The translations under genes and the position numbers were made by a program. Below, one piece after another: positions 6,370 to 45,184 of a stretch of DNA of 64,000 bases. Below the pieces are notes generated by a model. That model saw only the letters and a list, made by a program, of their open reading frames with translations. It ran no database searches and was not told where the DNA came from. The stretch is taken from contig JARKIF010000081.1 of assembly GCA_029378245.1 (NCBI GenBank), forward strand, positions 1 through 64,000. Reading direction: 5' to 3'. Source of the DNA: Roridomyces roridus. Taxonomy: Eukaryota > Basidiomycota > Agaricomycetes > Agaricales > Mycenaceae. Every line of letters begins with the position of its first letter. Position 1 is the first letter of the stretch.

Positions 6370-7821
6370 ATGCTTCCAGCCAATGCTACCCTGCGAACCC
6401 AGGTCTCGCAGCTCGCCCTGGAAATCTCGGCCACGAGAACGCGGTTGGCAGAAATGCAAGCCGAGTTGGTCAGTCTACAACACCGGCTGGATGCGGTCAC
6501 CTATCCCGTCTTGTCTCTACCGCCGGAAATCGTGGCCGAAATATTCATCCACTGTCTTCCACCTACACCCGAATGGCCCCGTTGCATCCACTCTGAGGAG
6601 GCCCCGTTAACGCGTTGCTTCTGTCACGAATTTGTAGCCACTGGCGTGGGATCGCCCTTGCTACCCCTGCGCTGTGGCAGCACCTCGATATCGACTTGAG
6701 ACGCCGCGAGAAACGAGCGGCTGATATAACCCAAACCTGGCTTGGGCGCGCTCGCGAGTTTCCATTTTTCGTGAGGATCACCGGGCGAGCCACGGAACTC
6801 ATTGGCTCCAACAAGTTTGCCGAGACGTTCCGTCGACATGCCCCAGGAATTCAGTCGCTGGAACTAGCAATCCATAAAGAAGACTTTTCTGTTGAGAGGA
6901 TGGTACAATCCTTTCAATTCCCCCTCCTCCGCCGATTGTCCATTCGCCTTCGGGAACATGCAGACATTTCGGATATACCCAAAGATCTCCGAGTCAAGAT
7001 GTTCCAGGACGTCCCCCAGCTTTCCCAGGTCGTGTTGCACCAGGTTCTGCCCAAAGACCTTGCACTTCCCTGGCAACAGCTCACGAAATTCACTGGTAAA
7101 TCGTTTTCACTGCCAGACTGCCTGGACACCCTGCGTAGCATGCCGAACCTCCTGGCATGTGCCCTTTCCGTGATCGAATCCTCGACGGACTACCCAGGGC
7201 TTGCCGTGTTTTCCCATACACGACTGCGCTCTTTTACTTTATTTCACTCACGGGACTATGGCAGTCCAAGGGCAAGCATGGAAATCCTCAATCTAATGGC
7301 CCTCCCCAATCTTGAGAGTCTCGAAATCTTGGATCTCAAATCCGACGAGCGCATGATTCTCGACTCATTTCTCCAACGCGAGCCCGCGCCTGCTTTGAAG
7401 CGACTCATCGTCCATCTGCGGTCCAATTACTGGGGCCACACGGCGCTGCCTTTGACTGCGGCGCCTTTTCTACAGCCTCATCTTACGGACTTGGAGATCT
7501 GGTATCCCGAAAAAGCCTTTACCCACGATTTCTTCGAGCGTCTCGGCCACGACTCGGGTTTCGTGTCGGGACTCGGGAAACTTGGGTTTCACTGCTACAA
7601 TGACCGGTATCCCGAGGACGTGGCTTCGCCACTTGATTTACTCAAAATCGCAGCCGTACCGGTAAAGAGCAGGAGGGATATGCCGGGGACGGGTGTTTCG
7701 TATCGTCGTGGTGGGCGGCAACTGGTTTTCCAAAGAGGCGGATTTGGCACCTTTCAAGGAATTGAAGGCGGAGGGTTTGGAGGTTTTTCTTGGCACAGAT
7801 GTCGCAAGAAACTTCATATGA
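6370..7821 (+). pseudogene. F-box-like protein, copy 2, with two frameshifts
   Basis: A paralogue of the local F-box family starting MLPANATLRTQVSQLALEIS (ATG at 6370), with an N-terminal coiled coil and F-box core YPVLSLPPEIVAEIFIHCLP. An extra 8 bp (ttaacgcg, about 6607-6614, within a palindromic CGTTAACG) interrupts the expected EEAP-LLLSRICSHW and shifts the frame. A second shift near 7690 separates VKSRRDMPG from RVFRIVVVGGNWFSKEADLA, which then runs to the family-typical end and a TGA at 7819-7821. Between the shifts the frame is fully open. A sequencing error could explain one shift but hardly both. The 8-bp insert could be a DNA-transposon excision footprint, although it does not copy its flanks. 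Confidence 0.7.
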
Positions 7822-8081
7822 GGTCAGTTTCTCATCTTTTTCCTTGGGCCCAGTGCTGGACTGACTCTTACGCCGATTCATAGAACAATAGTAAGTAGAC
7901 AAATACGCGTAGGATTATTCACAACGCCTGTAATGCAGCCTGTTCTTTGTGGCGACTGGTGAGCAGCGGGAATGGGTCCGGATGGGCCAAGCAAAGTTGA
8001 TTGTCGGTTCAAGTACGACATCAGTTTGTTTGTACTCGTTGTCTTTTTTCTTCCTTCAACCACCATCCGTTCATCCACAAT

Positions 8082-18123: not shown

Positions 18124-18132
18124 ACGCTCCTC
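18124..18132. repeat. Left 9-bp target-site duplication of the DUF6589-RecQ transposon
   Basis: acgctcctc directly abuts the TAGACTCG terminus at 18133. The identical 9-mer occurs at 24718-24726 directly after the right terminus CGAGTCTA. Confidence 0.85.
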
Positions 18133-18375
18133 TAGACTCGTAAACCAGTCGGCGTTCGCTGGTGTGATGATGGGCGGGCGGGATCACTGCGCGAAGCGAC
18201 TGGAGGATAATCAGCCGATTCTCGCATGGACCGGAAATTGCCGAGGTTTCGTGGACTTAGCGTCGAGAGCTCGCAAAGCTGGGTCCACTTTTGTCGAGTT
18301 GGCCCGGCGGGTGGATATAGGCCTCAAGTATGAATATTTCTAAGATTTTTCTATGTTTCCGTTTTTTTTTAAAGC
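18133..18375 (+). repeat. Left terminal inverted repeat
   Basis: Begins TAGACTCGTAAACCAGT. The region 18190-18375 (from CGCGAAGCGACTGG through ctatgtttccg and the T-run before TTTAAAG) matches the reverse complement of 24468-24653 with scattered substitutions and small gaps. It ends shortly before the DUF6589 gene leader. Confidence 0.85.
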
Positions 18376-18592
18376 TCCTCGTTCGCGAGTTATTGGGGCC
18401 TCAAGATCTGCAGTCTGTCTGCTTAAAACTGGGGACCCGCGCGTTACTCAGTGTGATACATGTATACATATGTGTCAGGGCGGGACTAATACATTGTCTC
18501 GAGGATGTGTGAGCCGCAGCTGTGCGCGGTGCAATCATAGACTCGGCAATCTTAGGGGTAAAATTGTGATCAAGACGATACTACTCCTCCTC

Positions 18593-21500
18593 ATGGTTTT
18601 CACTGCAAAGGAGGGTAAAGGCCGCAAAAGAGCGCGCTCTGTGGACGAGTATGACATACCTGCAACAACCAGGAAGCGGCTGGCAGCCACGCCGCGGCTT
18701 ACAACGTCTCCTCGCAAAACTCGCACTAGAGGCAGCCTCCTTGCCCTGGACTCGACTCCGGTGCCACCTGCTGGCGAGCCCAGCCAGGCTATAGACACCT
18801 TCGACGCCCATGCCGACCTGAATACCCCTCCGCGGACCGCGCCAAGCTCGCCCTCCTTCTCGAGATTAGATGATCAGCTCACGATGGAGGAGCCTTTCCC
18901 ATTCGACTTACCACCGTCGGAACCGCCTTCCCCTGGCAGCGACGCGGTAACTCCCACTGCGACTCCCACACTTCCTCATGTATCCGACAGTCCCATGTCG
19001 GTCATGGACCTCAGCCCCGAGAAGCCAAAGGGTGGTCGACCTCGGAAGAACAGAGTCTCGCGGAACCCCCTCGCAGATCAGACTCCAGGCTCCCCACCAG
19101 ACTGGACAGGCCACGATCTTTTTGGCGCGAAACAGGCCGCACTGGACGTCTCCATGCAGTTTGACGCCCTCGGAAGCACAGACAAGGTGCAGGGACTGAA
19201 GCAAGCGCTACAGACGGAGCTGCACGGAATTCTTCGGGAAAAGATGAAGAATGGCGCGACGATGAAAGATATACTTCACGCACTTTTCGCACCCAACGCG
19301 AAGGATCCAGCCATGACGGGGCTCCTGACGAAGGCATTTCGGAGTAACGGGGTGGAGTTGATGCAGCAGATCGCAGACAGGGCTCCAGACAAGGCGGACA
19401 CGTTTGCTTTGGAACGTATGGGCGCAGTTTTGAGGAGAGAGGGAGCGGCGATTCAGGGCCATCTGTCCCGCCCGAAGGGCACCAAGATCTCGGATTTGCT
19501 GCATTCGTTCGACCTCCAAACTCTTGCGGAAAGTCTTCGGGAGCTTGCACCCAACATGTGGCAGCTTCTGAGTGAGGCGTCGTGGACACCCAAGGCAGAG
19601 TCAAAATGTCGCGACTCGTCGTTGGTGAGAAAGTCCGTTTTTGGTAAGAATCAATCTAATCCCGATTTGGTCAGGTCTTTACCACCGTGTGCGCCATGAT
19701 CAGCCTCCTTCGCTCCCAGAAGGCCAATAACTTCCAGGCGGTCATCTCCCTGTTTCTCCTTGGTTCTGGAGCCTCGAAACGCGAGATTGAAGTGTTTGCA
19801 CACGCCGGCATTTCTCTGTCGTACAGATCCGTCATCAAGTACGTGAAAGCACTTTCCGAGGAGGGTATGACCGAATTCCGGGCTGTCTTTCGCCGCTGCA
19901 TGTGCTCCATCGTGTGGGACAACCTCAACATCGCATTCCGAGTGGAATCTCAGCGTCTCGACAACAAGAATCATTTCGACAGCGGGACGACAGCAACACT
20001 CATTCCGTTGTATGATCCATTCACCAACAGCACCTCAGTCCCCCACGGGACTCTCCCCATCGAGCTTAAACCGCTGCGCACGTCTCGGCAGAACAATCTT
20101 GACTGGACTGCCGAGGATGCCCTACCATCTGCTGAGGATGCCGCAACGCTGGACAGATGTCTTCGCTGGCAAGTGAAAAAGATCGCGCTCGAACATATTG
20201 AGCAACTCCACCGGCTGTTGAAGCAGCTTGGGCCATGCCCGGAGATCGACCAGATCCTTGTGCACCTCACGGAACAGTTCCCTTTCGCTGCCATGCATCT
20301 TGACGAGTCCAGTCTCGAAGGAACTATCAAGGTTATTCAAGCAATTTTGAAGCAGCTTGAGGTCACGGCAGAAGAACTCAAGGCGCACGGTCTCATTTTC
20401 GTGAACGGAGATCTCTTGACGGTCAATCTCTTCCATACGGTGCGCTGCCTCTGGTTCATCATTCTGCTTTGCTAACTCTCTTCTAGGTCGAAGGGGCTCA
20501 CCGTAATAGCGACAAGTTGAGCGACGCCGAGGTTCTGGAAAGCCTCAAGAATTTTCTGGATCGCTTTGGCGCGTTCCACGGCAAAATGGCCGTTAGCCGT
20601 TTGGTGATGAACGAACATTGGGGCAAGCCCAACTCCGTCGCAGGCGGGCTCTGGTGGGAGAATAACACGCTCCTCAAGCGCAAGCCGGTCTCAGCTGGAT
20701 GGAAATCGAAGAAAGCCGCCCCGTGGAAACCGTCTCACGAGCTACTTCAAATATCCTCCGCCGGCCATGTGCTCGACGCCTTCCGGATTCACTGCGGCAA
20801 GGCTGACTTTGCCGAGTGGGCGTCCCAAGCGACCTTTGAAGAATTTGAGAAGGTTGCAGACAAGGTATATGATTCCCTGTACACCACAGCAGCTTACGAC
20901 AAGGCATGCAAACGGCTGGAGGAGGAGCGTGATCCCGCTTTCGAGAATTCAATCCTCTACAACCGTGATTCGCTCCTCTATCATCTCCTGGTGCAGTCAA
21001 TCAAGGCGGGCGACATAGGACGTGTTGTCCTTGTCTTTCGGTATTGCGCTGTCATGATGCGCACACCGAAAACAATGCCGAAGTATGCGGATGCTTTCTT
21101 TGAGACCCTCCTTCGTCTCAAAACCTATCCCGAAACATTACGGTGCGTCGATCTCTCCTGTCCTCATGTGCTTGATACTGAACCGGCCACAGGAAATTCT
21201 TTCTTCATAATTGGCTCGTCAATGTCAAGGGTGTTCCCAACGGCTTCAAGGAGGTGGATCTTCTGCAAGAGCACCAGAATTTCTGGGCGAAGGTCATCTA
21301 CAATGCGAAAGGGGTCAATCGCAGCTGGGCCTGGCTCGGAATGATCACTGTATGCATCTTCGCGCTTCGCGACGCCATGCAAACAGTGCACAAGACGTTC
21401 AATATCCCAGACTCCGGCACCAAACATACAGTTCCGAACATGACGAAGGAAGTGAGCTGCGTCGCAGATGGTTTGAAGCAAGAGCGGCTCCAGGAGCACT

Positions 21501-21805
21501 GGGCAGAGCGTCCTCAAAAGGAGAAGGTCCAGCGCGCCCGTGATCTCATGGAAGAGGGTGCCGATTACATCAACACACGCGGCGCGTTTGCCAAGTTCAC
21601 GCAGCGTACCACCCAGTACACCAGGGAGTCTGGTGCCGAACATGATCCCTTGCGGAACGAGGAGGAAGAGGAGGAGGAGGCGAGCGCACAGGAGGCATAT
21701 GACGTGACACAAGAGGATTTGGAGATGGACGACGAGGAACCGTACCAAATGTTGAACGCAATTCTGCAGTCGGCGACAGACATGGTGGATGAGATGTCAA
21801 AATAG
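18593..21805 (+). CDS. DUF6589 protein, candidate transposase of the TIR element
   Basis: Four exons. ATG at 18593 (MVFTAKEGKGRKRARS) opens a Ser/Pro-rich N-terminus with basic patches (KGRKRAR, KGGRPRKNR) suited to nuclear import and AT-hook-like DNA contact. The conserved part follows the first intron (about 19625-19674): TTVCAMISLLRSQKANNFQA, CSIVWDNLNIAFRVESQR with HFDSGTTATLIPL, then VNGDLLTVNLFHT before intron 2 (20440-20486) and LDRFGAFHGKMAVSRLVM after it. Intron 3 (21142-21192) joins LR to KFFLHNWLVN. A Glu-rich tail ends at 21805. Acidic residues in WDN and NGD are plausible RNase H-fold catalytic candidates, but this is inference. No frameshift is seen, so the copy may be active. 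Confidence 0.78.
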
Positions 21806-21836
21806 TTATATTTGTACGCCGTTTATCAGAGTTCAT

Positions 21837-24404
21837 CTAAATCAAATCTAAATTATCCTGCTCCAAGTCTTTTCCTGCCTGAATCTGCTTCCATTCCATC
21901 TCCAAGTTGTTTCGAACAGCGGCGGCGGCAACAGCGTTCTCAAAGACACCCTCCAGAAAGACGGCATCACGGAAAATCTGCGATTCATCCCGGTTGTAGG
22001 TCCGAGCATTTAAAAACAACAGTCGCCAATCTGCCACATAATCGGACAAATTGGAGTAGCCGCCCTTCTGTGTTGTGGCATGGGTGAGCTGTTTAATTGT
22101 CGACATTGAGATTGGCCGTTGAATTTGCTCATAATATTGCGGGTGGAACTATGTGGAATGAAGTTAGGAGCGATGACAGATAGTATGCTCAGCACGTACC
22201 GTTTTGCGCGGGAGAGCAAGAAATACCTGGCACCGTAATTCCAGCACCATCCGCCTATTTACGCCTGTGCCGCGTTGCACCATGTTACCCGTTCCAACTG
22301 AAGCAACAGCTTCCCAGCATTCGTCACCAAGGGCGGTGAGCCTACGTCGATAATCCTTCGAAGCTAGAACGGTCAGCTGCTGATATGCTTTCTCGCGCCG
22401 CGCGGCTTCTCGCTCCTGTTCCTCGAGGTCTGGATGGTCAAGAAGTAGCCTTGAAATTTCAGAGACAACCTCAAGCCCATAACGGAAATCCTGAACTGTC
22501 CCGTATCTCCAAATGATGGAAGAGACGAAAATGTGGGGTGTTGTGATTGCACGAGGACGAGCGGCGATGGACTGGATAACTTTGTTCGACAGAATGAGTT
22601 TGCCGGTGATGTTCAACTGGTTCGGAAAGTCTCGAGCAATAATCTTGTCGCGCCATGCTTGAAGAGCTTCCACCACAGCCAAAGAAAGCTCTGGGGTTGG
22701 TTTCGAGCCGCGGCCGGGTTTGTCGAGCGGCAAGAGCACTGCTTCAATGCTATCAACCGGAAACTGGGATGGATCGCAGCAGTCGCAACAGCGGGTATCA
22801 GGGTCTTGCGGGATGAAGACCTCTGCTCAAAGATGAGTGAGAGAAATTGAATGATAACTAGATTCGTACTTTTCTTGGCATTTTGGAAGTACTCGTTCCA
22901 AGGGTCACGACGGCATTTGGGTTCCACAATGAACCGGGCTAAAAAGAGGGAGTCTTGCGCCTTAAAACCTGCGCTCGCCGTTGAGGATGTAGTTGGGACT
23001 TCATCTTCCTCCTCTAACTCATCAGGCCCGATTGCGGCCTCCCTGTCGAGAGGCTCTTCTGCCGCGTCATCATTATCGACACCCTCCTCTCTATCATCGT
23101 CCTCAGGGTCACTCTCATCAAAATCGCCTTCCGCCTCAAGAAGCGCCAAATGACGAGCATACGACGCCTTTGTGATGAAAAGAATCATCTCGCCGCGGTC
23201 TTGGATCTGCCGTGCACACCTGCCTGTTTTCTGCACCAGCGAGAGGAACGACTTGGGTTCGCGCCAAAGGACCACTCGCCGAACCTTCGAAAAATCCATA
23301 CCCTGGAACGAAATCGTTGGCATATGTATGGCAGTTCAATATTATTGCCTCACCATTCCAAGAGCATCCGTTGCGGAGACTGCACGTAAAGAGCCGTCTT
23401 GAAGAGCTCCCTGGATGATAATCTTGCGAGACTCAGCAATGTGCCGATGGTAGAACTCGAATGACACGGCGGGGATGGATTTTGGCGAGTGGGCCCGCAG
23501 AAAGTCTTGGATGTCCTCTGACTCCTGCAGGCTGTTGACGTAGATGAGAGTTTGGGGGAAGTCTTGTGCATTCGGGGAAGGATCGTGAGGGAAAAGATTG
23601 ATGAGATCCGCGTATGTGGTTCGGGGATGCTGCATGAGGCGCACAGAGAGCGCCACATTTGGCTTGTTGTTCGAGAAAGCGATGTGCTCGTATTTTGTAA
23701 TCGCCAGAAGCCGAAGACCATCCTGGAGAAGAATCCCAGGCAGTGTCGCTGAGCCCATCATCACAGGAACACCAGTGGGTAACCGCCGCAGAAGAACGAT
23801 GAGCTCGCTATATTCTGGCCTGAAGTCGGGTGTACCCCACTCCACTATGGCGTGGAACTCGTCGGCAATGAAGCCGATGATATTGTCCCGGAAGGGTGCA
23901 GCTTTCAGGACATGCTCGTGGAAAGCTGCACCAACGGCCATCTCGGGGCTCACAAACAGCACACGAAACTTGTTTTGACCGGCGTCCTGGCGCGAGATTC
24001 AGAATGGGTAGAGAGAAGCAGAATGGGCCGACCTTGAGCGCCTGTTTCAAATCTGGCGTATGTGAAGTGAGCGCAAGTGCGGGGATCTTTCGATTGCACA
24101 GATCCTCCGCTTGCTCGCTCATGAGAGCCACCAGGGGACTGACGACCAGCAAGATCTTGCGCGTGCCCTCGGCGTTGACGTTCGGGTCCCAGTGGTACAG
24201 AAGCGGCCACCAGAATGCAAGGGTCTTGCCACCGCCAGTAGGGACATCGAGGACAACATTCTTGCCTTGTATCAAGTGAATCCCGGCAATTTCTTGGTGC
24301 GGGCGAAGCTCAGAGACGTTCCAGATACCGAATATGAGGTCCTTGGTGTGCTGTACGCATGTTGGGTCCGGTTCTGCGACGGCCTCGTAAGGCATTGAGA
24401 GCAA
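21837..24404 (-). CDS. RecQ-like helicase with C-terminal bromodomain (transposon-encoded)
   Basis: Starts MLSMPYEAVAEPDPTC at 24404 (the second Met four codons on is also possible). Superfamily 2 motifs in order: RPHQEIAGIHLIQGKNVV (Q-like region), Walker A DVPTGGGKTLAFWWPL, VVSPLVALM, DExH box as ADEFHAI, MGSATLPG, IYVNSLQESEDIQDFL and motif VI QKTGRCARQ. A long acidic linker (DESDPEDDDREEG) follows. The C-terminal exons, split by an intron at about 22150-22200, read FHPQYYEQIQRPISMSTIKQ, YVADWRLLFLNARTYNRDES and IFRDAV, a bromodomain with the acetyl-lysine-pocket Asn in NARTYN. The stop lies 31 bp from that of the convergent DUF6589 gene. Host RecQ helicases have RQC/HRDC domains instead. 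All catalytic motifs look intact. Confidence 0.8.
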
Positions 24405-24467
24405 AGAGGGGTCACTTCCCGATTGGGAACGGCCGATCTTCCGGCCTCAATAACTCAGGAACGGCAC

Positions 24468-24717
24468 CCTTTAAAGAGAAACGGAAACATACAAAAGTCT
24501 TAGAAAAGTTGGTAGTATAGTCCTATATCCACCCGCCGGGCCAACTCGACAAAAGTGGACCCAGCTTTTCGAGCTTTCGACGCTAAGTCCACGAAACCTC
24601 GGCAACTTCCGCTCCATGCGAGAATCGGCTGATTATCCACCAGTCGCTACGCGGAACGGCTTTGATCGACTATTATCAAATCTGCCAACCCTTGCGTGCT
24701 TACTGGTGTCGAGTCTA
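24468..24717 (-). repeat. Right terminal inverted repeat
   Basis: Reverse complement begins TAGACTCGACACCAGT at 24717 and carries the long subterminal match to the left end from 24653 inward to about 24468, just upstream of the helicase start codon. Confidence 0.85.
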
Positions 24718-24726
24718 ACGCTCCTC
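24718..24726. repeat. Right 9-bp target-site duplication
   Basis: acgctcctc, identical to 18124-18132 and directly after the terminal CGAGTCTA. Confidence 0.85.
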
Positions 24727-27316: not shown

Positions 27317-28278
27317 TTACAACCGCTTCACAGACCAATACAGCATCCAAAAGTCGGTCTCATTATTCAACACCTTGCCCGAGTTCTTCAACCATGCCTT
27401 CACTTCAACCTGTCCGGGCTTGAACACCTGCGTCGTCCACATCTCCTCCCAGCTCTCTGGCGTGTGGCAGAAAATCTGGTTGCTCCCTGAGGCGCGCATG
27501 AAACCCTTGGTAGGCTGGCTGCCGTGGCAACCAAAGATCATCGATCCAGCCTTGGGCGAGAGCAAGCCGGCGAATTTGCGTGCAATGAACAGCTGGTGCT
27601 CCTCGGAGAAGAGGTGGAAGAAGGAGCCAGTGTGGATCGCCGAGACGTAGCCGTGGAGAGGGTTGAACGAGGTGAGGGTGGAAAGGACGGGGGGAGGTGG
27701 GGACGGGGCCTCCGTCAGCTGGGGGAGTAAATCGAGGAACTCGGGGTCCAGGGCATCTCCTGGAATGAAGCTGCCCTTGAAGTCTCCCGATGGGTTGCAG
27801 TACAGCTGGTTGCTGACATCCCAGAAACCACTACGCAAGTCCGAGGCGAGGATGTTCTGGGAGGGGAACCCCGCTGCGGCGATGTTGCGCACGTCGTTGC
27901 CCACTGCAACAAGACGGTCAGCAATGTACCTCGTTTCAATGCGGGCACATACAGCAACAGCCAAGCTCGATGAGGATTGCGTTGGGATCGTTCTTTCCGA
28001 GGTTGAGCACGTGCTCGTAGGCCTCGGGGTTCTTGGGCATCTTCAGCCTACGCGCCGGTAAGCACATACAATCTGCATTCAAGCGAAACAACGTGCCTGA
28101 TGAAGCCCAGGCGCTTGATGCACGGGTAGGGATAGACATTGAGCGCCACATCGCGCATCTCGAAAATGTGCTTCTTCAGCGCATCGTCGTCGGTGATTCC
28201 AGTCGCGCCCTTCAAGAACGAGAGCTCGTGCTCGTCGAGGCGGTAAAAATCTTCAGTATCGGTGTTGGTCACGGTCAT
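27317..28278 (-). CDS. Class I SAM-dependent methyltransferase
   Basis: Start MTVTNTDTEDFYRLDEHELS at 28278, then YVYPYPCIKRLGF-like N-terminal helices (VALNVYPYPCIKRLGFIR) as in a basidiomycete-specific group of small methyltransferases. Introns at about 28040-28095 and 27905-27960 flank MPKNPEAYEHVLNLGK with the SAM motif I, ILIELGCC|VGNDVR, split by the second intron. ASDLRSGFWDVS follows as the acidic motif II region; then GYVSAIHTGSFFHLFSEEHQ and LLSPKAGSMIFGCHG. The C-terminus ends DFWMLYWSVKRL. About 280 residues and apparently intact. The substrate is unknown. It sits upstream of the oxygenase on the same strand. Confidence 0.75.
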
Positions 28279-28889
28279 GGCGAGTGGAAGTGAGGGAAAC
28301 AGATACTTTACTTGGTGAGTATTTATGTGTTCCAATCGGCGGTACCGTCCACCGTGTTGGTCGGTGGAACTGGATATCGTCATTCTGACAATTCGTGTAC
28401 TTTAAACTGGCCCACGATTCTACGCGGGATTTCATTTCCAACCGAGAGCAAGCCAAACAAACGTAGAGAATTTTGTGAACTTTTCTCACTGTCCGAACGT
28501 CATCTCGACTTTGCGCCAACCGAGCAGTCGAGTTTAATTTTGACGATGACATGGTAATCGCCACTTTAGGCAAAAGGTCACATGTCTTTGCGCTCGCCTC
28601 CGACTTTCATCCCATGCACAGTAATTCTGTACTTCCGCAAGCGATGGGCAAGGAACACGGGTACCAGAACCGGGGTTTGCCACCTGTTTAAACTACACGG
28701 GCCTTCATTCATTCGCACGCCGCGCTCGTCTCCGATCCTATTGGCTCTTCTATTCCCATGGGGAATCTCTCCGTCGAATTATCGTGAACGCGGTTGGTGC
28801 ATGTACGGTAGTCGACTCGCGTCCCGGAGATTGGTCAGGAACGACGACGTAGGCGCGCGCGAATTTTTCTGGTCTCTCCACAGAACCTC
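28279..28889. other. Intergenic region between divergent genes
   Basis: About 610 bp between the methyltransferase (minus) and ABC transporter (plus) start codons, holding both promoters. No recognisable element or coding stretch was seen. Confidence 0.45.
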
Positions 28890-31800
28890 ATGGTATCGAC
28901 GACGACGACGCAAGAAAAGGAGGGCCCGACAAAGGAGAATGCAACCCAACACCACAATGGCCTAGACTTGGATTCTGGGGACGAGGTTGTGCGTTTTCGC
29001 CAACGATGGTGGCAGCTTTGGTGGGTTTTCGTCGTGCCTTTGATTTTTACATGCTGAAACTACCTCAGGCTTCCCGCCACACGCCCTCCACCAGCCCCCG
29101 AGTCTCTCGAGGACGCGCCCATAAGCCCCTACATCACCGCCTCCTTTATCTCGCGCCTCACTTATTCATGGTACACGCCAATGATGATGCTGGGTTTCCA
29201 ACGGACTCTGCAGGCGTCCGATCTGTGGAAGATGGGGCCCGAGCAGGAAGCAGGGTACCTCACCGACAAACTTGAGGCTGCATGGGCTGCACGCATCGCA
29301 GCCGCCGAGGCGCATAATGAACGACTCGCGAATGGCCAAATCAAGCCTCCGTTTATGAAGCGTGCTCGGTGGGCCGTGCAGGGACGGGAGAAGAGGGCGG
29401 AGAGGCATCGTTGGTGGCGCGAGGAAGGAGGAAAGCAGGAACCCAGTCTTGCTTGGAGTTTGAACGATGTACTGGGGAAAATGTTCTGGAAGGCTGGGCT
29501 GTACAAGGTATATTGCAATCTTTTCTCGTCTTGCATTGGACCGAATCCTATGAAACAGGTCTGCCAAGACACTTCGCAGCTCATGGGCCCGCTCCTCATC
29601 AAGTCGCTTATTAACTTCGCCAAGGCCCGTGCCGCCGCTGCTGCAGCCGGCGACGAGCCACCAGGTGTCGGGCGTGGAATTGGGATGGCAATCGGTTTGT
29701 TGTGTCTCATTATCCTTGCCAGTGTCTGTCAACACCAAGTCCGTCGTACCCGTTTCTGTACTCACCAACTAACGACGTCCTCCAGTTCTTTTTCGCTTCC
29801 ATGACAAGTGGCGTATTTGCACGCGCTGCCCTCACTGGCATGCTCTACCGCCGCACGCTACACTTTACGCCTGCTTCACGCCTCGAACATCCCAACAGCG
29901 CGATTTTGAATCATATCAGTACGGATGTGAGCCGTGTTGATACCTGTGCACAGTGGTTCCACGCGGCATGGACGGCACCAATTCAGAGTGGGTACTATCT
30001 CCTGCGTGGTACTTTGACTGATTTCCCGAATAGCGACAATTTGTCTGATAATCCTCCTTGTCTTCCTCGGACCATCTGCTCTCGCGGGCTTTGCGCTCTT
30101 CATTTTGATCATTCCCCTCCAGGAGCGGATGCTTGGTGCACAGCACCGCTATCGACGTGTTCGTTTTCCATTATTTTCATTTCACTTACACTCAAAACGA
30201 CTTTCAGGAAAGCATGAAATACACCGATGCCCGCTCTTCCACTTTCCTCGAGATTATCTCGTCCATGCGCGTGGTCAAGTACTTTTGCTACGAGAAGAGT
30301 TTTTTGGCACGGATCTTTGAAATGCGGAAGCAGGAGCTGCGTCAAGTGAGGAAGATTCAGCATAATCAGAGTTTGAAGTGTTTTATTTCCCTCTGTTGTT
30401 TCTTCAAGCTGACCGTTTTTGATAGCAACGCGATGGCCTTCTCCCTTCCTGTCCTCACAGCCACGCTCGCGTTCGTCACATACACAAAGACGACTGAGAA
30501 GTTTGATGTGGCGGTGATATTCGCGAGCTTCTCGCTTTTCCAGGTACGCCTTCTTTTCCTTGTGCCTTTTTCCGGAATTGAATATTCCCATGTAGCTTCT
30601 GCGCTACCCTATGATGTTCCTCCCGCGGGCGCTCTCTGCCACCACCGACGCGCGAATTGCGCTGAAGCGTCTTTCACGGACGTTCCGTGCGCCGGTCCGC
30701 CAGGGCGAGCCGTTCATTATTGATCGGGATATGGAACTCGCTGTGTGGGCAGAGGGCGTTGGGTGGGTATGGGAGGCGGTGAACGATCCGAGCAAGGACG
30801 AGGGCAAAGGGAAGAAGGCGAAGGTGGACAAGGAGAAACCTGTGGTTTCCGAAAAGGAAGACGATCTCACCTCATCCTCTGTGTCTCTGGAACCCTTCGC
30901 GCTCAAGAACATCAGCCTTTCTATCCCGCGGCAGTCACTCGTTGCGCTCGTTGGACGTGTTGGCAGCGGCAAGTCGAGTCTCCTTCAGGGGCTTATTGGT
31001 GATATGCGTTCGACGGGGGGCAAATGGGCGTTTGGTGGCAGTGTGGCGTATTGCCCGCAGACAGCCTGGATTCAAAATGCGACTTTGGTGAGTTGTGATC
31101 GTTTGACAGACATTTTCTCACGGCCGATCTGTAGCGCGAAAATGTCCTTTTTGGACGACCGTACGAGGAAGAGCGGTACTGGCGTGTGATAGAGGATGCG
31201 TGTCTGCTCCCGGATCTCGCGCTTCTTGCGGATGGGGATCTAACTGAGATGTACATGAGTTTTATCCAGTGTTTTTTCCCTATCGCTCATTCTTTTCGGT
31301 AGCGGCGAGAAAGGCATAAACTTGTCAGGTGGGCAGAAACAGTTGTCCCTAACCTAAGCTGACCTAACCTAGGTGGGCAGAAACAGCGCGTAAATGTCGT
31401 TTTCCTCTCCTGTTTCTGGTGAAATTGACATTTTAACCAGGTGAATATTGCCCGCGCGATGTACTACAACGCCGATGTATACATCTTTGACGACCCGTTG
31501 TCTGCTGGTCTGTGAACGTACTTTCCCTTTGCGTTCTATCGCTGATTTTAAATCACCTAGTTGACGCACACGTCGGAAAAGCGCTCTTCAATGGCGCGAT
31601 CCGTGGCCTCATTGCGGAGGGCAAGACTGTCTTGCTTGTGACGCACGCGCTGCACTTTCTCGCGCATTGTGATTACATTTACACGTTGAGCAACGGGAGT
31701 ATCATGGAGGAAGGTACTTACCCTGAGCTTGTGGCACGCGGTGGTGTGTTCGCGGCGCTGGATCGTGAGTTTGGTGGTGGGACGCAGAAGAAGCGGGGTA

Positions 31801-34647
31801 GTGGAAAGGAGGGTGAGGAGGAGGATGCACCGATGATACAGGTCATGTCCGTGGAAGATGCCAAGGCGCGGAGCAAAGCTGCTGGGACGGGAAAGAAGGA
31901 GGGCAAGCTGATGGTCAAAGAGAAGCGTACGACTGGCGGCGTTGAGTGGAGGGGTACGTCCTTGACCGCCTTTTCGTCCTGAGACTCATTTGCTGTTCAG
32001 TTTACGGACAGTATATGAAGGCTGGTGGGGGCTGGGTGACGGTGCCGGCTGTGGTTCTTGCTGCCGTTCTTATGCAGAGCAGCGCGGTGATTAACTCTTA
32101 TGTCCTTGTCTGGTGGCAAGCCAAGTGCGTATCGCCCACCCAAAGTCTTCGGGCGCTGATTGTTTGTGCAGCACATTCAACAAGCCTTTCTCATTTTACC
32201 AGACACTCTATGCTCTCCTCGGCGTGTCACAATCCTTCTTCACCCTCGTGATGGGATATACGCTGGACTTTTTCTCCGTCCGTGTTTCGCGCAACTTGCA
32301 CGACATGACAATCCTCAATGTATTCCATGCACCAATGTCCTTTTTCGGTAAGTGATTGTTTGGTGTTGTTTTTAATGTCGCTGACCATCCGTTAGATACA
32401 ACGGTAATATTACCCAGAGAGACTGGAATAGCACTGACGTGTCTCTTAGCCCATGGGCCGAATAATGAGTATCGTGCGTATACCTTTGTTCCCGATAAAT
32501 CGTTGTTGACCACTCGACACAGTTTGGCAAAGACATTGATGGTATGGACTTTTGTGGTCTAATATGTATCTGCTAACAAGCTTCGCAGCGATCGACAACA
32601 ATTTACCAAGTATGCGCGCGACTTATTTCTACTCATCCTTGCTAATCTACTCGCAGTTTCCATGCGCATGTGTAGGTGGTTAAATCTTACGGAACTTCTG
32701 TGGCTGAACGCATCCAGTCACTCTCGCCCTTGCTCAAGTTCTTGGATCGGTTATCGTCATCAGCATCCTCGAGCCCTATTTCCGTGAGTATCCTAGTTTG
32801 GCGCGGTACATTCAACTAATTCTTTACCCAGTCATTGCCGCCTGCGCCATTATAATTGCCTTTGGCTACTTCCTCCAGTTCTATCGTGCGACTGCGTTGG
32901 AAACGAAACGTTTGGATGCACTGCTGCGTTCCGTCCTCTACGCACATCTGTCGGAGTCACTCACAGGTATGTTTTTTTTTCGCCGCGAGTCCAACGGTCG
33001 GACTAAGCTGTCTAGGTCTCCCGACTATCCGCAGCTATGGTGAAATACCGCGGTTTATCAAAGGCAACGCGTACCACATCGACCTTCAGAATCGTGCGCT
33101 GTTTTTGACGGTGACCTATCAACGTTGGCTGGCCATCAGATTGGATGCATGCGGCGCGGTGCTTGTGTTCTTGGTGGGTATATTTGCGGCTGTCGGTGTT
33201 TCTGGCATCACTGCTGGTCAAATTGGCCTCATCTTGACGTATACGAGTGCGTACAACTCCGGGCTGACGATCGTGGCCATTAACGATCTATTTCAGCAAC
33301 GATATCCTCAATGCTTGCCGTTACCACGAGGATGTCTGCCGAGGTCGAGAACTACATGAATTCGGTCGAGCGAGGTCCGTTTTCCATTTCGGAATTTGAT
33401 CACGTGCTTATATCTTTGCAGTCATTCACTACGCGAGCAGCGGTGCCGTCCCGCAAGAGGCACCGCACGAGAGCACCCCAGAAAACAAGCCGCCACCACA
33501 CTGGCCTTCGCATGGTGCGATTCAGTTCAAGGATGTCACCATGTCGTACCGTCCGGGGCTGCCCAACATCTTGCACGGAATCTCGTTGGAGATCAAGGCG
33601 GGGGAGAGGGTTGGCATTGTCGGCCGTACTGGCGCAGGTAAGAGCTCGTTGACGTTGTGTTTGTTGCGGATTGTGGAGTATCTTGGGCAAATCATCGTGG
33701 ATGGGTAGGTGCCAGTTGTCATGGTTTGTGTGCTCTGACTTATTCTTTAAAGTGTGGACATTGGCAAGATTGGTGTGTTGCTTGCTTACTGTAGATTCTC
33801 GGCGCTTAGTTGACAACAGGATTGACGGATTTGCGTGCCAATATTGCTATTATACCGCAAGAGGTGTGTGACGATCTAGAGATTGTTTTGGTTTGATGAT
33901 TCAACGGATGGTAGCCTACCCTATTCAGCGGTACCGTGCGGGCTGCACTAGACCCGTTTTCTAAATATGATGATGCCCGACTCTGGGCAGCCCTCCGCCG
34001 CTCCTACCTCGTCGAGTCGCGCCCGTCAACCCCAGCTGGATCGGAAACAGAGCTGAACCGAAACAGCAACAGGATTACGCTTGACACCATTATTGAGCAG
34101 GACGGCGCCAACCTGAGTGTGGGCGAGCGCAGTCTGCTGAATCTTGCGCGCGCGTTGGTGAAGGATTCGCGCGTCGTTGTACTCGACGAGGCTACGTATG
34201 TGGATGCTGGCCTTGTGACCATATTGGATTGACGGTGCTGGTTTAGGGCTTCCGTTGACCTCGAGACCGATAACAAAATCCAGCACACAATCCAGACACA
34301 GTTCCGGAATCATACCCTGATATGTATTGCCCACAGGCTGCGAACGATCTTGTCTTATGACCGGATTCTTGGTACGTTCCTGGTTGCTCTCCTCGCATTG
34401 GTATCGCTCACGATGTTTGCAGTTCTGGACGGTGGAAAGATCGTGGTATGTCCAAGCATTCTTCTGATTGTTTCTTCCTCTTCATGGTGTCTTGCAGGAA
34501 TTCGACACGCCGCTGAACTTGTTTAGTAACATGGAGGGCATCTTCCGTAGTTTGTGCGACAAGAGTAACATCAGCAGTGGCGATATAGAGAAGGCGATTG
34601 TGGAGCAGGATCGGTTGGACAGGGAAGCGGAGGAGATAGCGCAGTGA
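28890..34647 (+). CDS. ABCC (MRP/Yor1-type) ABC transporter
   Basis: A full-length ATP-driven exporter (two membrane domains, two nucleotide-binding domains) broken by more than 20 introns. Start [20 protein letters not shown]; the first membrane domain includes [20 protein letters not shown] and [23 protein letters not shown]1 has Walker [14 protein letters not shown], signature [15 protein letters not shown] (spread over three exons), Walker [11 protein letters not shown] and H-loop LLVTHALHF. The second membrane domain includes [20 protein letters not shown] and [18 protein letters not shown]2 has Walker [16 protein letters not shown], signature [29 protein letters not shown] (across an intron) and LICIAHRL. 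The stop TGA is at 34645-34647. Such proteins export conjugates, toxins or secondary metabolites at the plasma or vacuolar membrane. Both NBDs keep their catalytic motifs. Confidence 0.85.
31329..31372 (+). other. 44-nt intron within the NBD1 signature, bounded by a 16-bp duplication
   Basis: aggtgggcagaaacag occurs at 31327-31342 and again at 31371-31386, with 28 bp between (ttgtccctaacctaagctga plus cctaacct). Splicing from the GT of the first copy to the AG of the second removes 44 nt and restores LSGGQKQR exactly. Without splicing the frame is lost. The insert supplies a branch-point-like CTGAC/CTAAC. Confidence 0.8.
32396..32403 (+). other. 8-nt microexon of the ABC transporter
   Basis: atacaacg lies between a GTTAG acceptor and a GTAATA donor. 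Together with one base from each neighbouring exon it completes FF-DTT-PMGRIMS, the conserved start of this membrane helix. Adjoining exons are also tiny (24, about 19 and about 18 nt). Confidence 0.7.
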
Positions 34648-34718
34648 ATGATTTCATGAATTTTACGATTAGTCAAGCGAACAAGAATAATACTCTGGTA
34701 TCGAAGCAAAAGGAAGGC

Positions 34719-34950
34719 AACTGGTCGCTATTCCACCTTGGTGGTAGCCGTCCGCATCAGCCAGTGGGGCAACTAGTCGCTGTTCCACTCTCGTGGCAGC
34801 CGTCCGCATCTCCGGTTGGTTCCTACTACCTGGCTAGCCCCATAACACACCCTCACCCGACGAGGGGGAATAGGAGCTAGGCAGGGAGGAACGTGGCTAG
34901 CCCGATAATACACCCTCACCCGACGAGGGGAAATACAGACTAGGCACTGG
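34719..34950. repeat. Two short tandem duplications
   Basis: A roughly 52-bp unit (ggcaactggtcgctattcca ... gccgtccgcatc) is repeated at 34719-34770 and 34771-34822. A roughly 63-bp unit (ggctagccccataacacacc ... cgacgaggg) is repeated at 34831-34893 and 34894-34950. Copies differ at several bases. Confidence 0.65.
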
Positions 34951-35135
34951 CACCTAGTGATGCCGTGGTCCGGTTCTGAACCCCGCCGAACTTGTGCGAA
35001 CCCCGAACCGAACACGGGGTGCGGTTCGAAGGGAGTCGTCGAACCCGCACCGAACCTGAGGTTCGGTCCAGGGTTCAGGAAATCTTGGATATTTTGCACC
35101 GGTGCAGACCGGTGCGAACCTGTTCGAACCCCTCC
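34950..35135. repeat. GGTTCG-rich dispersed repeat, copy 1
   Basis: A run of GAACC/GGTTC pentamers in both orientations (tgcggttcg, accgaacctgaggttcggtc) between gtggtccggttctgaacc and gcgaacctgttcgaacccct. It could form many hairpins and resembles repeated tRNA T-arm sequences. It shares the ctggcac...tgccg(t/c)ggtccgg stretch with the copy at 35.5-35.8 kb. Non-coding. Confidence 0.55.
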
Positions 35136-35505
35136 CGAGTTGGCAACTCTGGATCACCCAAATCAAGCGCTGATCCTTCGGCTAGCAGCCACGGATGATG
35201 TCCGGCATCATCGGCCCCATCCGCCGTCGGTTGACATGGATGATGGACATCAAAGTGTCTCCATTCTGGGCTAGCCAGCCTCGGCAATCTGTGATCTGAG
35301 TTACCATCTTGCGATGAAGGCGTCGGCAACAAAAGAGATCGTCTGGATGGAGACAGTTCAATTCTGTGTGACGGCTGAACAGCGTAGATGATCGTGTGCC
35401 GTCTTTATGCCGTCGCGCATGGTGGGTTGGTTTAACCATGATGGTGCCGCTCTGAGTGTACATTTAAATCGTGATGCAGATGAGTTCATGTCAGATGTCT
35501 GCAGT

Positions 35506-35835
35506 TCCTTTTTTTGTGAGTGCTAACGGCGGGAAAAATTTGAGGTCCGAACCTCAGCGAACCTGTTCGAACCTCACACCGAACCTGTGGCGGACCGAAC
35601 CTGTGGCGGACCGAACCCCAGGTGCGGTGCGGGGTTCGATGATTCGGGCGAACCGAACCTCGGGTGCGGTTCGGGGTTCGAGAAATTTGGCCCCGAACCG
35701 AACAAGACCGGACCGCGGCAACACTACTGGCACCAGCGTGGATCGAACCGGTAACTCACCCCGAAGGGGGAAACCAGTCGATGCACGACAGGATACCGCT
35801 CCTCCACAGAGGAGTACGGATACGAGTGAACGACC
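35506..35835 (-). repeat. GGTTCG-rich repeat, copy 2, with tRNA-like head and short poly(A)
   Basis: On the minus strand a head (about 35835-35740) reads GGAGGAGCGGTATCCTG ... TTACCGGTTCGATCCACGC, with B-box-like GGTTCGATCC and an A-box-like segment. It is followed by gtgccagtagtgttgccgcg, then the GGTTCGG-rich body (35550-35740), and ends ccgttagcactcac plus seven As at 35513. This fits a SINE-like element. I found no target duplication, so the boundaries are approximate. Confidence 0.5.
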
Positions 35836-36433
35836 TTGGAGTAGTGGTGGAGGTCTTTGGGAGCACAAGTCGATGTTTCGCCCATTTGGAGTGTGCGATT
35901 TGTGATATCTCCGGCGTCGTTCTCCACCCTTGCTCTCCTTGGGCGCAAAGAAGGCAAAGGAGAGTCCGACTGCGCCCACGGCGCGTCGTGGCGGGTAAAG
36001 TCGACTTAGTCGAGATTGGGCGTCGTCAATGAGCGCGTCGCGAGCTGTGGCTAGGACCGGACAGGATGGGTTTGGGCGGTTCGCGCTTTGCTGCTTCACG
36101 CCTGTCGTTCAGCATGACTTCGGTTGAGAGAAAACTGGAAGAGAGGGTTGTACTATTACCTGTTAAGAATCCCTCCATCCTCGTCCCTCTTCGGATGACT
36201 CGATCTCCGGGGCCTCCTTCTTCTTGCACAGCTAACCAGGGACTGCCGTGTTCTAGTGGCTGAAAAAACGTCGCGTCTTGGCCAAGGCCTAAAACCGAAT
36301 TTGACCAACCGAAAGTCTTTCAATCTGGCAATTGGTAGCTCTCCTGGGTAGATCGAGTCTTGAAATAGTAGAGGCGTAAGGAAGGAAAGTTTGCGGTCGC
36401 ACCCATGGCCAAAAAGGGAGCAAAAGGGAGAGC
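35836..36433. other. Gene-free region
   Basis: About 600 bp without convincing coding sequence. The minus-strand frames here are Arg/Ser-rich and have no recognisable domain, consistent with chance open frames in GC-rich DNA. Confidence 0.4.
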
Positions 36434-39886: not shown

Positions 39887-41434
39887 TCAGATAAGATTGG
39901 GTCCATCTTCCTTGCCAATGTAAACATCCAGCCCTTGCACCTTCATTTCTCGGAACGGAGCCAGATCCCTCTGGCGGATAAGGTGGTTCCGGTGATCCTC
40001 CGCCTCGAGGACACGGAATACACGCAGCTTGGCGACTCCAGCCAATTCCATTCTCTGAACCAGAGGTTTCGCCCCAAAGGAGAGTACCTGCTTGTACGAG
40101 TATTCATTTCCTCGATTCCGGCAATGGAAATAAAGGTTTTCGAGCCGGGCGAGAAACTTTGGATCAGTTCCGAAGAAATCGAAGAAGGCGATGCCGAATT
40201 CTCTTGGTATATACCAGATTTGCAAACTTGTCAGATGAGATTGCACAAATGGAGCCCTGTCGGCTTTGAAATATGGGTAAATCCAGGCATATTCCTCTGG
40301 GCGAGCGACAAGCCGCTTTAAAGGCGGGGAACCGCGCTCTAAAAATGACACGAGGGTATCCTCCAAGTCACTCGGGTCCACCTCGAGAAGTTCGAGGTTT
40401 TCAAGGTTTGGGAAAGTAACGAACCGGAGGAGTTCCACGCTGTTTGCTGTGTATTCCGCAGCGGAGTGGGAGGTGGCGGAGAAAGAGAGGAACAGGGTGA
40501 AAGTTCGCATTGCAGGATGAGAGAGCACGTCAACTTGGTTAGCATCGAAATCACTCTTCGTCTTGAACATTGAAAGTGAACATTCGGTGAGGTTAGGCAT
40601 CTTGGCCAGAGCCTCCATGCATTCCGTGATGTTGTACAATTTGCCCGTGAAGGAACGGACATGGTTCCACGGAAGGACAAGGAGGCGGGAGGGAATTTGG
40701 TCCAGAAGGAGTCGGTCGAGTTCAGGAGCAGTCTGGAACATCTCGACGCGGACTTCGGGCGCTTCCTCATCTTCCTCCACTTCGATGAGGTGAAGGGACA
40801 GCTCGCGGAGGTGAGAAAAGTCGGCAAGCGTGGGCATGCGGACCCAGTCGTAGATACAAACATCGAGTTTGAGAGAGCGCACTCCCGGTGCATGCTGACA
40901 AACTGCCTCGAAAAACGCCTCGAAGTTCTGGTCCGAGATAAGTCCCTCAATTGTGACAGAAAGAGGGTGGCGGCGAGAGTGGTCAAGCCAGGTTTGAGCA
41001 ATGTCCAGTGCATGCTTCTGACGCCGGATACAGCTCATGTCCAATCTCGTCCAAAGCCTCGGCGTGGAGAGTGCGATTTGGCGCCACTGGCTGCAGATTC
41101 GCAGCAGAAGCAATGGAGCTTCCGTAGTGTTCACCACATCTCTGCTCCCAAGTACGTCGGGGAGGCAGTGGACGAAGATTTCCGAGGTGATTTCTGGCGG
41201 TAAAGTCAAGACGGGGTACGCAATTGCGTCCAACTGAGTCTGAACAAGCTCCAGTTCAATGTGTAATTCTTGGATACGGTCCTGCAAAACCGAGATTTCG
41301 TGCAGGGTACCCGCAGCCTGGGATCGAAGGGCGGTAGGGGTCTGGAGCATTGGTGATTCGGGAGCTTGCTTTCCAGCCGCGGGTGAGCATACACTTGCGA
41401 GTCGGAATAGTTCACTCACAGTAAGCGGTTTCAA
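39887..41434 (-). CDS. F-box-like protein, copy 4 (intact)
   Basis: A single open frame of 515 codons. The first Met (41434) gives an extra leader of about 28 residues; the Met beginning MLQTPTALRSQAA may be the real start, because copy 7 starts MRNTHAALRSQAAE. Coiled coil LHEISVLQDRIQELHIELEL, F-box YPVLTLPPEITSEIFVHCLP, RICSQWRQIALSTPRLWTRL. The C-terminal LRR-like body includes HLRELSLHLIEVEEDEEAPE, FPNLENLELLEV, GSPPLKRLVARP and LRVFRVLEAE. It ends YIGKEDGPNLI. With copy 7 it forms a subgroup distinct from the MLPAN-type copies. Presumed SCF substrate adaptor; target unknown. Confidence 0.85.
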   Translation of the reverse strand: MKPLTVSELFRLASVCSPAAGKQAPESPMLQTPTALRSQAAGTLHEISVLQDRIQELHIELELVQTQLDAIAYPVLTLPPEITSEIFVHCLPDVLGSRDVVNTTEAPLLLLRICSQWRQIALSTPRLWTRLDMSCIRRQKHALDIAQTWLDHSRRHPLSVTIEGLISDQNFEAFFEAVCQHAPGVRSLKLDVCIYDWVRMPTLADFSHLRELSLHLIEVEEDEEAPEVRVEMFQTAPELDRLLLDQIPSRLLVLPWNHVRSFTGKLYNITECMEALAKMPNLTECSLSMFKTKSDFDANQVDVLSHPAMRTFTLFLSFSATSHSAAEYTANSVELLRFVTFPNLENLELLEVDPSDLEDTLVSFLERGSPPLKRLVARPEEYAWIYPYFKADRAPFVQSHLTSLQIWYIPREFGIAFFDFFGTDPKFLARLENLYFHCRNRGNEYSYKQVLSFGAKPLVQRMELAGVAKLRVFRVLEAEDHRNHLIRQRDLAPFREMKVQGLDVYIGKEDGPNLI

Positions 41435-41923
41435 CTTTCAAGAATAGGGGAATCTATCAGGGATGCTCTGGCCTCGAGGGAGGGACCCCGGTCAAGGCGT
41501 CTTTGAGAATGTGTTGAGTATAGGAGTGACGGTTCCAGTGAGGCGGAATCGAAGATGGCAGTTCAAGTTGAGATCTAGAATGGTTCCGATCATTCGCTTC
41601 TTCACTCATCCCACATCCGCACAAAGCACATCGTCCTTCGCTGCTGCTGTCCCGTGGAAGAGCACACCAATGAGTCAACTACGCGGGATTCGTCTGGAGC
41701 ACAAGTTGACGTCCTCGTCCTCTCCTTTCTGAGTTTGCGATTTGTGTTCCGGGTTCCGGGATGCCCGCACAGCTTTCTCCCTTTCAACTCCCGTGCCACA
41801 ACGTGCGGTACGCGACGCGCGTCGACCCTAGGTTCTTCAAGACTTCTCCGTTCTTGTCAGTGGAATCCGCAACACTACATACGCACAAACTACTGACATC
41901 CAAATTTTTTGCAGAGCGTCGTC
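41435..41923. other. Intergenic region between divergent F-box genes
   Basis: About 490 bp between the starts of copies 4 and 5, so both promoters lie here. Minor open frames have no recognisable content. Confidence 0.45.
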
Positions 41924-43381: not shown

Positions 43382-43690
43382 CCTCGTGTAGTATGAAAGA
43401 TTACACTCAAGAGTAAAGCCGTACACAGATGACGACTTGCAGCGTCGGAAGCTTGGACGACTCGGTGGCAAACGGTGTACTCCACGTAGATAGTATATTG
43501 TCTCGAACATGGAAGAACTTTCAAACTCCGCACGAATCTTCCCCGCATCATTGATTTGTGATCGTTAGCTCTCTCTCTCTTCTTGTAACAACACGTAACC
43601 CTCGGTCAGTGAAAATTCGGGTAAATATATGCCTTCCCACTAATCGCGCCCAGAATTTTCCCTGTTGTCTCTCGCGGCGGATCCGACCAA
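43382..43690. other. Intergenic spacer between F-box copies 5 and 6
   Basis: 309 bp holding the promoter of copy 6; no other feature seen. Confidence 0.4.
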
Positions 43691-45184
43691 ATGCTTCCTG
43701 CCAACGTCGCCCTGCGATCCGAGCTCGCACAACTCGACATAGATATCTCGGATCTACAAACCCGTTTAGCGGAAAAGCAGGCTCAAAGGGGCCAGCTGCA
43801 ACAACAGCTCGACTCGATAACCTACCGCGTACTCTCCTTACCACCGGAAATCGTGTCCAAAATATTCATCCTTTGTCTCCCGACTTGGTCGCGTCCCCTC
43901 GATAGTATCGATCTCAAGCACGCCCCCCTGCTTGTATCCCATATTTGTAGCCAGTGGCGCCGAATTGCCCTTTCGACACCGGCCTTGTGGAAGGACTCAC
44001 TGGATATCTGCATGTGCCTTCGCCGGAAACAAGCGACCAATATAACGGAAACATGGGTAGCCCGCGCGCAGAGCTGCCCTCTTTCTGTAAAGATTCAGGG
44101 GCCAATGGATCTCGTTAAGCGAGCCGGGGTTTCCGAGGTGTTCCGTCACGTTGCGTTAGGAGTGCAATCCTTGGAGCTGGATATCTTTGAGGAGGACTTG
44201 GTAAAGATGCCTGAGCCCCTGGAATTTCCCCTTCTTCGCAAATTGACCATGTGTGTTTGCGGGGGCGACGAGGTCGAGCTCCTGGACGATCTCGTCCAAA
44301 CATTCGACGACGTCCCGCAGCTTTCACAAGTTGTTTTGGACCACCTTCCGGCTCACGCCATTGCCCTCCCCTGGGAGCAGCTTCAAAAATTCACCGGCAA
44401 ATTCTACCTCCTCGATGAATGCCTGGACGCCCTACGTTTCATGCCAAACCTCGTCGAATGTGCATTTTCCATGCTCGAGACTGTTGTCACCGAACACTAT
44501 GAGATAGTCTCTCACCCACACATACGCACCTTGACCCTGTTTCAATCTATGGAATTCAAAGACGAGGAGGACGCTCAAGTCGACATCCCCCGCAGCGCCC
44601 AACTCCTGGCGTTCATAACCCTCCCAAATCTGGAAACTCTCGAGCTTCTCGACATCGAGGACTGCAATGCGGAGATCCTGGCTTCCTTTTTGAGTCGTGG
44701 TTCGCCTCCTCTCAAGCGGCTCGTCCTCCGTCCGCATTTCGACCACGGGCAGGCGGAGCTGCTATTGAGCACGGCACCATTGCTGCAGCCTCACTTCACA
44801 GATTTGGAAATCTGTTTTCCGTCAAAGAATTTCGTGTCCCGCTTCTTCGAGCGTTTCGGATGCGACTCGGGATTTCTGCCGGGGCTCCAGAAGCTTTCTG
44901 TTATTTGCAGAAAACATTGGTCGAAGGAGGCGTCGCGAGATGATTTGCTGGACGCGGCCGCTGGACCTTTGACCAGTCGGTGGGATTTGCCTGGGGATAA
45001 CAAGTTGCGGATGTTTCGTGCGATTGCGGTGGAGCGTCAACGTTCAAAAAGAAAGACCCCTGTCCCATTGCAACGACTGAGGCAAGAAGGAATGAATGTT
45101 GTCATTGGCAGTCGGAGACCCCGGGCTTATGGTGAATTCTGCCCACCCGAGTATAGAGATTCTTCAAGTTCAAGTGAAATCTAA
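43691..45184 (+). CDS. F-box-like protein, copy 6 (intact)
   Basis: A single exon of 497 codons starting MLPANVALRSELAQLDIDIS. Coiled coil LQTRLAEKQAQRGQLQQQLD, F-box YRVLSLPPEIVSKIFILCLP, ICSQWRRIALSTPALWKDSL. LRR-like body: SLELDIFEEDLVKMPEPLEF, KFTGKFYLLDECLDALRFMP, LPNLETLELLDIEDCNAEIL, GSPPLKRLVLRP. The C-terminus extends about 25 residues beyond VVIGSRRP into a Ser-rich end (YRDSSSSSEI). Closest to copies 1 and 3 by shared segments. It is the clearest intact member of the MLPAN subgroup. Confidence 0.88.
   Translation: MLPANVALRSELAQLDIDISDLQTRLAEKQAQRGQLQQQLDSITYRVLSLPPEIVSKIFILCLPTWSRPLDSIDLKHAPLLVSHICSQWRRIALSTPALWKDSLDICMCLRRKQATNITETWVARAQSCPLSVKIQGPMDLVKRAGVSEVFRHVALGVQSLELDIFEEDLVKMPEPLEFPLLRKLTMCVCGGDEVELLDDLVQTFDDVPQLSQVVLDHLPAHAIALPWEQLQKFTGKFYLLDECLDALRFMPNLVECAFSMLETVVTEHYEIVSHPHIRTLTLFQSMEFKDEEDAQVDIPRSAQLLAFITLPNLETLELLDIEDCNAEILASFLSRGSPPLKRLVLRPHFDHGQAELLLSTAPLLQPHFTDLEICFPSKNFVSRFFERFGCDSGFLPGLQKLSVICRKHWSKEASRDDLLDAAAGPLTSRWDLPGDNKLRMFRAIAVERQRSKRKTPVPLQRLRQEGMNVVIGSRRPRAYGEFCPPEYRDSSSSSEI

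Follow-up and report, generated by a model that had tools for sequence, protein, structure and literature searches.

DUF6589 proteins are common in Agaricomycetes, and public records name only a domain of unknown function for them. A DUF6589 gene and a gene for a RecQ-type helicase lie side by side in the 64-kb stretch of DNA considered here (hereafter, the window), a part of contig C482 (148,322 bp) of the mushroom Roridomyces roridus (Mycenaceae; assembly of 90.8 Mb in 501 contigs). The question is whether this pair of genes is a mobile element, whether the DUF6589 protein moves it, and to which known transposons it is related. The two genes are enclosed in a terminal inverted repeat (TIR) transposon of 6,585 bp (window positions 18133-24717), which is real, complete, and recently mobile. 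As judged by comparison with published descriptions, it most likely represents a new AcademH family; we put at about 0.8 the probability that it is an AcademH-type DNA transposon, autonomous and recently mobile, with the DUF6589 protein as its DDE transposase.

The borders of the element were read directly from the sequence (Table 1). The same terminus, TAGACTCG, is found at both 18133 and 24717, flanked by a perfect 9-bp duplication, and the arms of a subterminal inverted repeat begin 57 bp inside the left terminus and 64 bp inside the right one. These features had been claimed by an earlier analysis of the letters alone (hereafter, the sequence-only reading); the termini and the duplication are borne out to the base, and the long subterminal repeat has the length and complementarity given in Table 1. 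To see what chance would yield, the whole window was scanned for 8-bp inverted ends bordered by a 9-bp repeat, both without mismatches: three such pairs were found, including the element itself, vs. one in total in 20 length-matched first-order Markov sequences. What speaks decisively against chance inverted ends is that identical ends recur elsewhere with different 9-bp duplications.

Indeed, two more full copies are present in R. roridus, namely, on C190 and C449 (327,817 bp). The C190 copy is 99.7% identical to the window copy (19 mismatches, no indels), with both coding sequences open. The C449 copy (99.3%; 25 mismatches, 18 gap columns) has a 4-bp insertion that shifts the DUF6589 frame and has lost 14 bp where an exon of the helicase gene meets the last intron. 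The duplication is ATCTAAACT for the C190 copy and CAGCAGCGG for the C449 copy. Altogether, nine elements with TAGRCTCG ends, ranging from 78 bp to 9.1 kb, have nine different perfect duplications, the length being 9 bp in all nine elements with both ends found; further copies with such termini and duplications were what the sequence-only reading had proposed to look for. None of the nine has the same ends around a different transposase, an observation that this reading had named as telling against it; five more exact helicase-side ends lie outside the set. Genome-wide, the helicase-side end has 10 exact copies, whereas its control yielded one match at up to three mismatches. An end scan of 21 merged stretches gave six with a perfect 9-bp duplication and matching ends, leaving out one C201 candidate with a mismatch in the duplication and three mismatches in the end.

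Uninterrupted targets, searched for in the same assembly with 250 bp from each side joined at one copy of the duplication, exist for all three full copies. The window site corresponds to C442:2504832-2505320 (88% over 1-500), the C190 site to places on C460 (100%) and C472 (99%), both over 1-500, and to three more places at 85-89%, and the C449 site to a place on C68 (100% over 1-500), its remaining matches being partial. These are relatives of the flanking DNA within the assembly rather than proven empty alleles of the same locus.

The ends were also used for prediction. Three diverged DUF6589-helicase pairs had one known end each, and the partner of this end was sought genome-wide as an inverted TAGNCTCG beside the identical 9 bp. 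Single matches were obtained for C201 (at 723959, yielding an element at 717371-723966 with duplication ATCTGCTCC) and for C450 (at 247022, yielding an element at 247031-256156 with duplication ACCAAGTTT); the third pair, on C57, is considered below. Similar ends at 248734 and 249801 of C450 apparently delimit a smaller element nested inside the larger one.

The pairing of the two genes is recurrent, as the sequence-only reading would have it. The PF20231 search of R. roridus gave 47 matches, grouped by hand into 23 DUF6589 loci, and the helicase search gave 18 loci with matches to the helicase core, likewise grouped by hand and leaving out bromodomain-only matches (C491, C268, C275) and short fragments in C453 and C79. 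Of the 18 helicase loci, 14 have a DUF6589 locus no more than 10 kb away (14 out of 20, if the C453 and C79 fragments are counted); by chance, about 0.5% of the genome would satisfy this criterion. The four unpaired loci (C480, C335, C190:566806, C223:874579) may be cellular RecQ genes. The genes are convergent in the window type, C472, C109, C468, C379, and C13, and divergent in C450, C201, C57, and C223; on C223, two inverted DUF6589-helicase copies (963022-967432 and 971655-976065) share 99.98% identity across 4,411 bp or more. In other fungi, 94 helicase relatives (P0121-P0214 of 120 listed, leaving out P0216 from Suillus and 25 RecQ rows) were compared with 120 listed DUF6589 proteins, pairs being counted by equal species and contig size. 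By this count, at least 44 out of 94 share a contig with a listed DUF6589 protein (43 contigs from 24 species, the smallest being 4,460 bp); the longer of these contigs demonstrate linkage rather than adjacency.

The DUF6589 gene of the window is intact and has three introns (19625-19674, 20440-20486, 21143-21192), the splice model being one of nine that keep the frame, selected by its fit to relatives. In Pfam, the protein matches PF20231 (E = 5.1e-109) and no other family at E up to 1. No non-fungal relatives are seen among the named DUF6589 matches listed (120 of 176 and 120 of 713; P0315 is nameless), and none of 14 control genomes matched in the PF20231 profile search. The predicted structure contains an RNase H-like core with D-D-E and, ahead of the last acidic residue, a long helical insertion, as in hAT (Hermes), P element, and RAG1/Transib transposases; Hermes, P element, RAG1, and Transib are the best fold matches, with Hermes and P element leading. 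The best rows for Hermes, P, and RAG1 show only 9-10% identity over the aligned parts, and these systems differ in their ends and share no Pfam family found here. The D, D, and E of the proposed triad are conserved. Given the pairing with the helicase, the predicted RNase H-like core with D-D-E, and the fold matches to transposases, DUF6589 is very probably the transposase of the element, as the sequence-only reading had suggested, pointing to an RNase H fold with three acidic residues as the feature to be expected.

The helicase gene, also intact, has four introns (24032-23987, 23353-23303, 22869-22823, 22199-22149); its splice model is confirmed by identity to the public R. roridus protein P0121 (100% over 787 aa). 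The Pfam domains are DEAD (2.9e-20), Helicase_C (3.3e-9), and bromodomain (2.4e-12), and the window copy retains the motifs TGGGKT, DEFH, GSATLP, and QKTGRCAR. The helicase core is closest in PDB to the bacterial RecQ 1oyw by sequence (1e-25), and the fold comparison is headed by RecQ, BLM, and WRN; the overall top PDB sequence row is polybromo-1, with the best stretch in the bromodomain. The partner of DUF6589 is thus a RecQ-bromodomain helicase, in agreement with the sequence-only reading, and both genes are intact and convergent, as it stated. As to its further claim that they are the only cargo, no other coding cargo was seen in a search made for these two genes. The helicase resembles RecQ helicases in its core and zinc-knuckle cysteines, and differs in having a C-terminal bromodomain and no Pfam match to RQC. 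The zinc-binding cysteines C462, C488, and C492 are invariant in 29 out of 29 chosen relatives, RecQ_Zn_bind being listed in nine of them and not in P0121. Residue N736 (in NARTYN), corresponding to the acetyl-lysine-contacting asparagine of bromodomains, is invariant in the same 29 aligned proteins, which is a selected figure, as they were picked almost exclusively among proteins listed with a bromodomain. Among the 94 unselected relatives listed, 49 have a bromodomain by hand count. Since none was detected at E up to 0.1 in the C-terminal frames of C201, C450, and C468, where unseen exons are possible, the bromodomain seems to mark a sublineage of these helicases.

Several searches gave adverse results or none. 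The 18-base pattern of the DUF6589-side end has 109 matches at up to three mismatches vs. 96 for the reversed control, and hence most of its three-mismatch matches are due to chance. The C57 pair gave no partner end in the search of the whole genome; C468, C109, and C472, forming one family with about 99.6% identity, yielded the single end TAGTCTCGGGACCAG; and a lone end at C458:588290 has no partner within the stretch scanned. The DUF6589 profile found nothing credible among PDB sequences. Two side observations concern these loci. At C57:155863 to 158480, a helicase-side and a DUF6589-side end, separated by about 2.6 kb, enclose N-terminal pieces of DUF6589; this is probably another deleted copy. 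C468 and C109 share 3,576 bp, including the flank, at 99.6%, which may reflect a duplication or the presence of both haplotypes in the assembly.

The AcademH lineage of the Academ superfamily was reportedly named in 2020 by Kojima (Mob DNA 11:15). According to later papers, AcademH is a helicase-encoding lineage of fungi and animals (PMC10799480, PMC10045372) with 9- or 10-bp duplications, whereas AcademX has 3 or 4 bp and a nuclease (PMC10045372); AcademH occurs in low copy in Basidiomycota, Ascomycota, and Mucoromycota (PMC10799480). The window element likewise encodes a helicase (DEAD, Helicase_C, RecQ-type fold), its duplications fit this length, and both occur in Basidiomycota; a DDD/E transposase is here a prediction from the structural model and the conserved D, D, and E. 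Hence the sequence-only reading, which knew of no described superfamily with such a pair of genes, was probably wrong in presenting it as undescribed. The comparison is one of published descriptions, and DUF6589 elements might be a superfamily of their own, resembling AcademH only in duplication length and helicase. The bromodomain RecQ and the lack of any DUF6589 mention in the literature searched speak for this, while the helicase, the 9-bp duplication, and the occurrence in Basidiomycota all match the published AcademH descriptions; we consider it unlikely. That the helicase is a host-derived passenger with no part in transposition is quite improbable: non-autonomous derivatives do exist, and no helicase was matched within 10 kb of nine out of 23 DUF6589 loci (one of them, C458, belonging to an element that has ends of this kind together with a 9-bp duplication), but the two genes occur together in diverged elements of both orientations and, among the matches listed, on shared contigs in 24 species, and the window copy retains the helicase motifs.

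Other known groups agree with the data less well. MuDR elements, too, typically make 9-bp duplications, yet Pfam at E up to 1 gives PF20231 and no MULE transposase domain, and the fold matches are led by Hermes and P element, a list from which the absence of MuDR proves nothing; we regard a MuDR-like element, or a member of another known superfamily with a diverged transposase, as very improbable. Kolobok duplications are TTAA, whereas those observed here are 9 bp long and of nine varied sequences. KolobokH, as described in PMC9587614, shares the RecQ helicase and the fungal host, with its helicase located downstream of the transposase domain, while the window helicase is encoded separately, on the opposite strand; we rejected this assignment as scarcely credible. 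Helitrons, too, were rejected: they lack inverted ends and duplications, both found here, and no domain of the HUH/Y1 transposase, ascribed to them in the literature, is seen in Pfam at E up to 1; the preference of the sequence-only reading for a TIR element over a Helitron was therefore sound. The KDZ elements (Zisupton, Kyakuja) are described as having 8- or 7-bp duplications, in contrast to 9 bp here, and no KDZ family is found in Pfam at E up to 1.

If the window element is indeed an AcademH-like transposon, the DUF6589 protein would excise it after binding the TAGACTCG...ACCAGT ends along with the subterminal repeats, and would then integrate it into new DNA with a stagger of 9 bp; the alternative for the window element is a copying route instead of cut-and-paste. 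The helicase would most likely unwind DNA at the ends or during repair, and the bromodomain, in its sublineage, may hold it to acetylated chromatin. The 78-bp C442 element consists of the ends and almost nothing else, and therefore the ends may be all that mobility needs.

With AcademH-type elements already named in 2020, the chief advance is that a common, uncharacterized protein family acquires a likely function. As transposases, DUF6589 proteins would drop out of host gene counts, and the family offers a testable D-D-E triad, ends, and need for a helicase. Two intact copies with 99.7% identity and clean duplications make a workable model of a poorly studied, helicase-carrying kind of transposon, and, as the bromodomain asparagine is conserved, transposition may be linked to chromatin acetylation in a way that can be tested. 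A bolder generalization, which we regard as tentative and rather doubtful, is that all DUF6589 proteins are transposases of helicase-carrying elements, a large unrecognized source of mobile DNA in mushrooms, and that in one sublineage RecQ has been fused to a working acetyl-lysine reader, so that acetylated chromatin steers or licenses transposition. The literature searched contained nothing relevant on DUF6589 or PF20231 (one PF20231 mention was unrelated), and neither a DUF6589-transposon link nor a helicase bromodomain in one sublineage nor a switch of gene orientation was encountered in it.

Table 1. Features of the window element (window positions) and short related elements in R. roridus.
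Feature	Position	Strand	Basis or remarks
Transposon	18133..24717		Ends and duplication; two more copies (99.7%, 99.3% identical) stop at identical bases
Target-site duplication ACGCTCCTC, left copy	18124..18132		Direct reading and window repeat scan
Target-site duplication ACGCTCCTC, right copy	24718..24726		Direct reading and window repeat scan
Left (DUF6589-side) end TAGACTCGTAAACCAGTC	18133..18150	+	Exact in C190, C449, and the 78-bp C442 element
Right (helicase-side) end TAGACTCGACACCAGTAAGCAC, minus-strand reading	24696..24717	-	10 exact genome copies
Subterminal inverted repeat, left arm	18190..18414	+	225 nt, 87% complementary
Subterminal inverted repeat, right arm	24429..24653	-	225 nt, 87% complementary
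DUF6589 gene, probable DDE transposase, 1,021 aa	18593..21805	+	Splice model; PF20231; proposed triad D426, D590, E844
RecQ-type helicase gene, C-terminal bromodomain, 787 aa	21837..24395	-	Splice model identical to P0121; Pfam; motifs
Short element, internally deleted, 1,761 bp	C453		Duplication GACTTCTCC
Short element, internally deleted, 1,758 bp	C79		Duplication CGCTTAAAG
Short element, both family ends, 78 bp	C442:1805828-1805905		Duplication ATAATTGGC
Short element, DUF6589 remnant, 1,763 bp	C458		Duplication GCCGCGCGG

Elsewhere in the window, the other two pairs from the scan for exact 9-bp repeats flanking exact 8-bp inverted ends, at 27559-35936 (AGAGCAAG) and, in a locally repetitive stretch, at 35057-35576 (TGAGGTTC), may be due to chance and have no further support. 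Long frames at 6597-7880, 39890-41437, and 43625-45181 have weak F-box-like matches below the Pfam cut-off and, together with similar long frames nearby, may form a local F-box gene cluster. Finally, two copies of a 32-base stretch, TTAGTCGGCC and then TAGTCTCGTATGCACTGAAGGT, lie 406 bp apart at 57074 and 57480.
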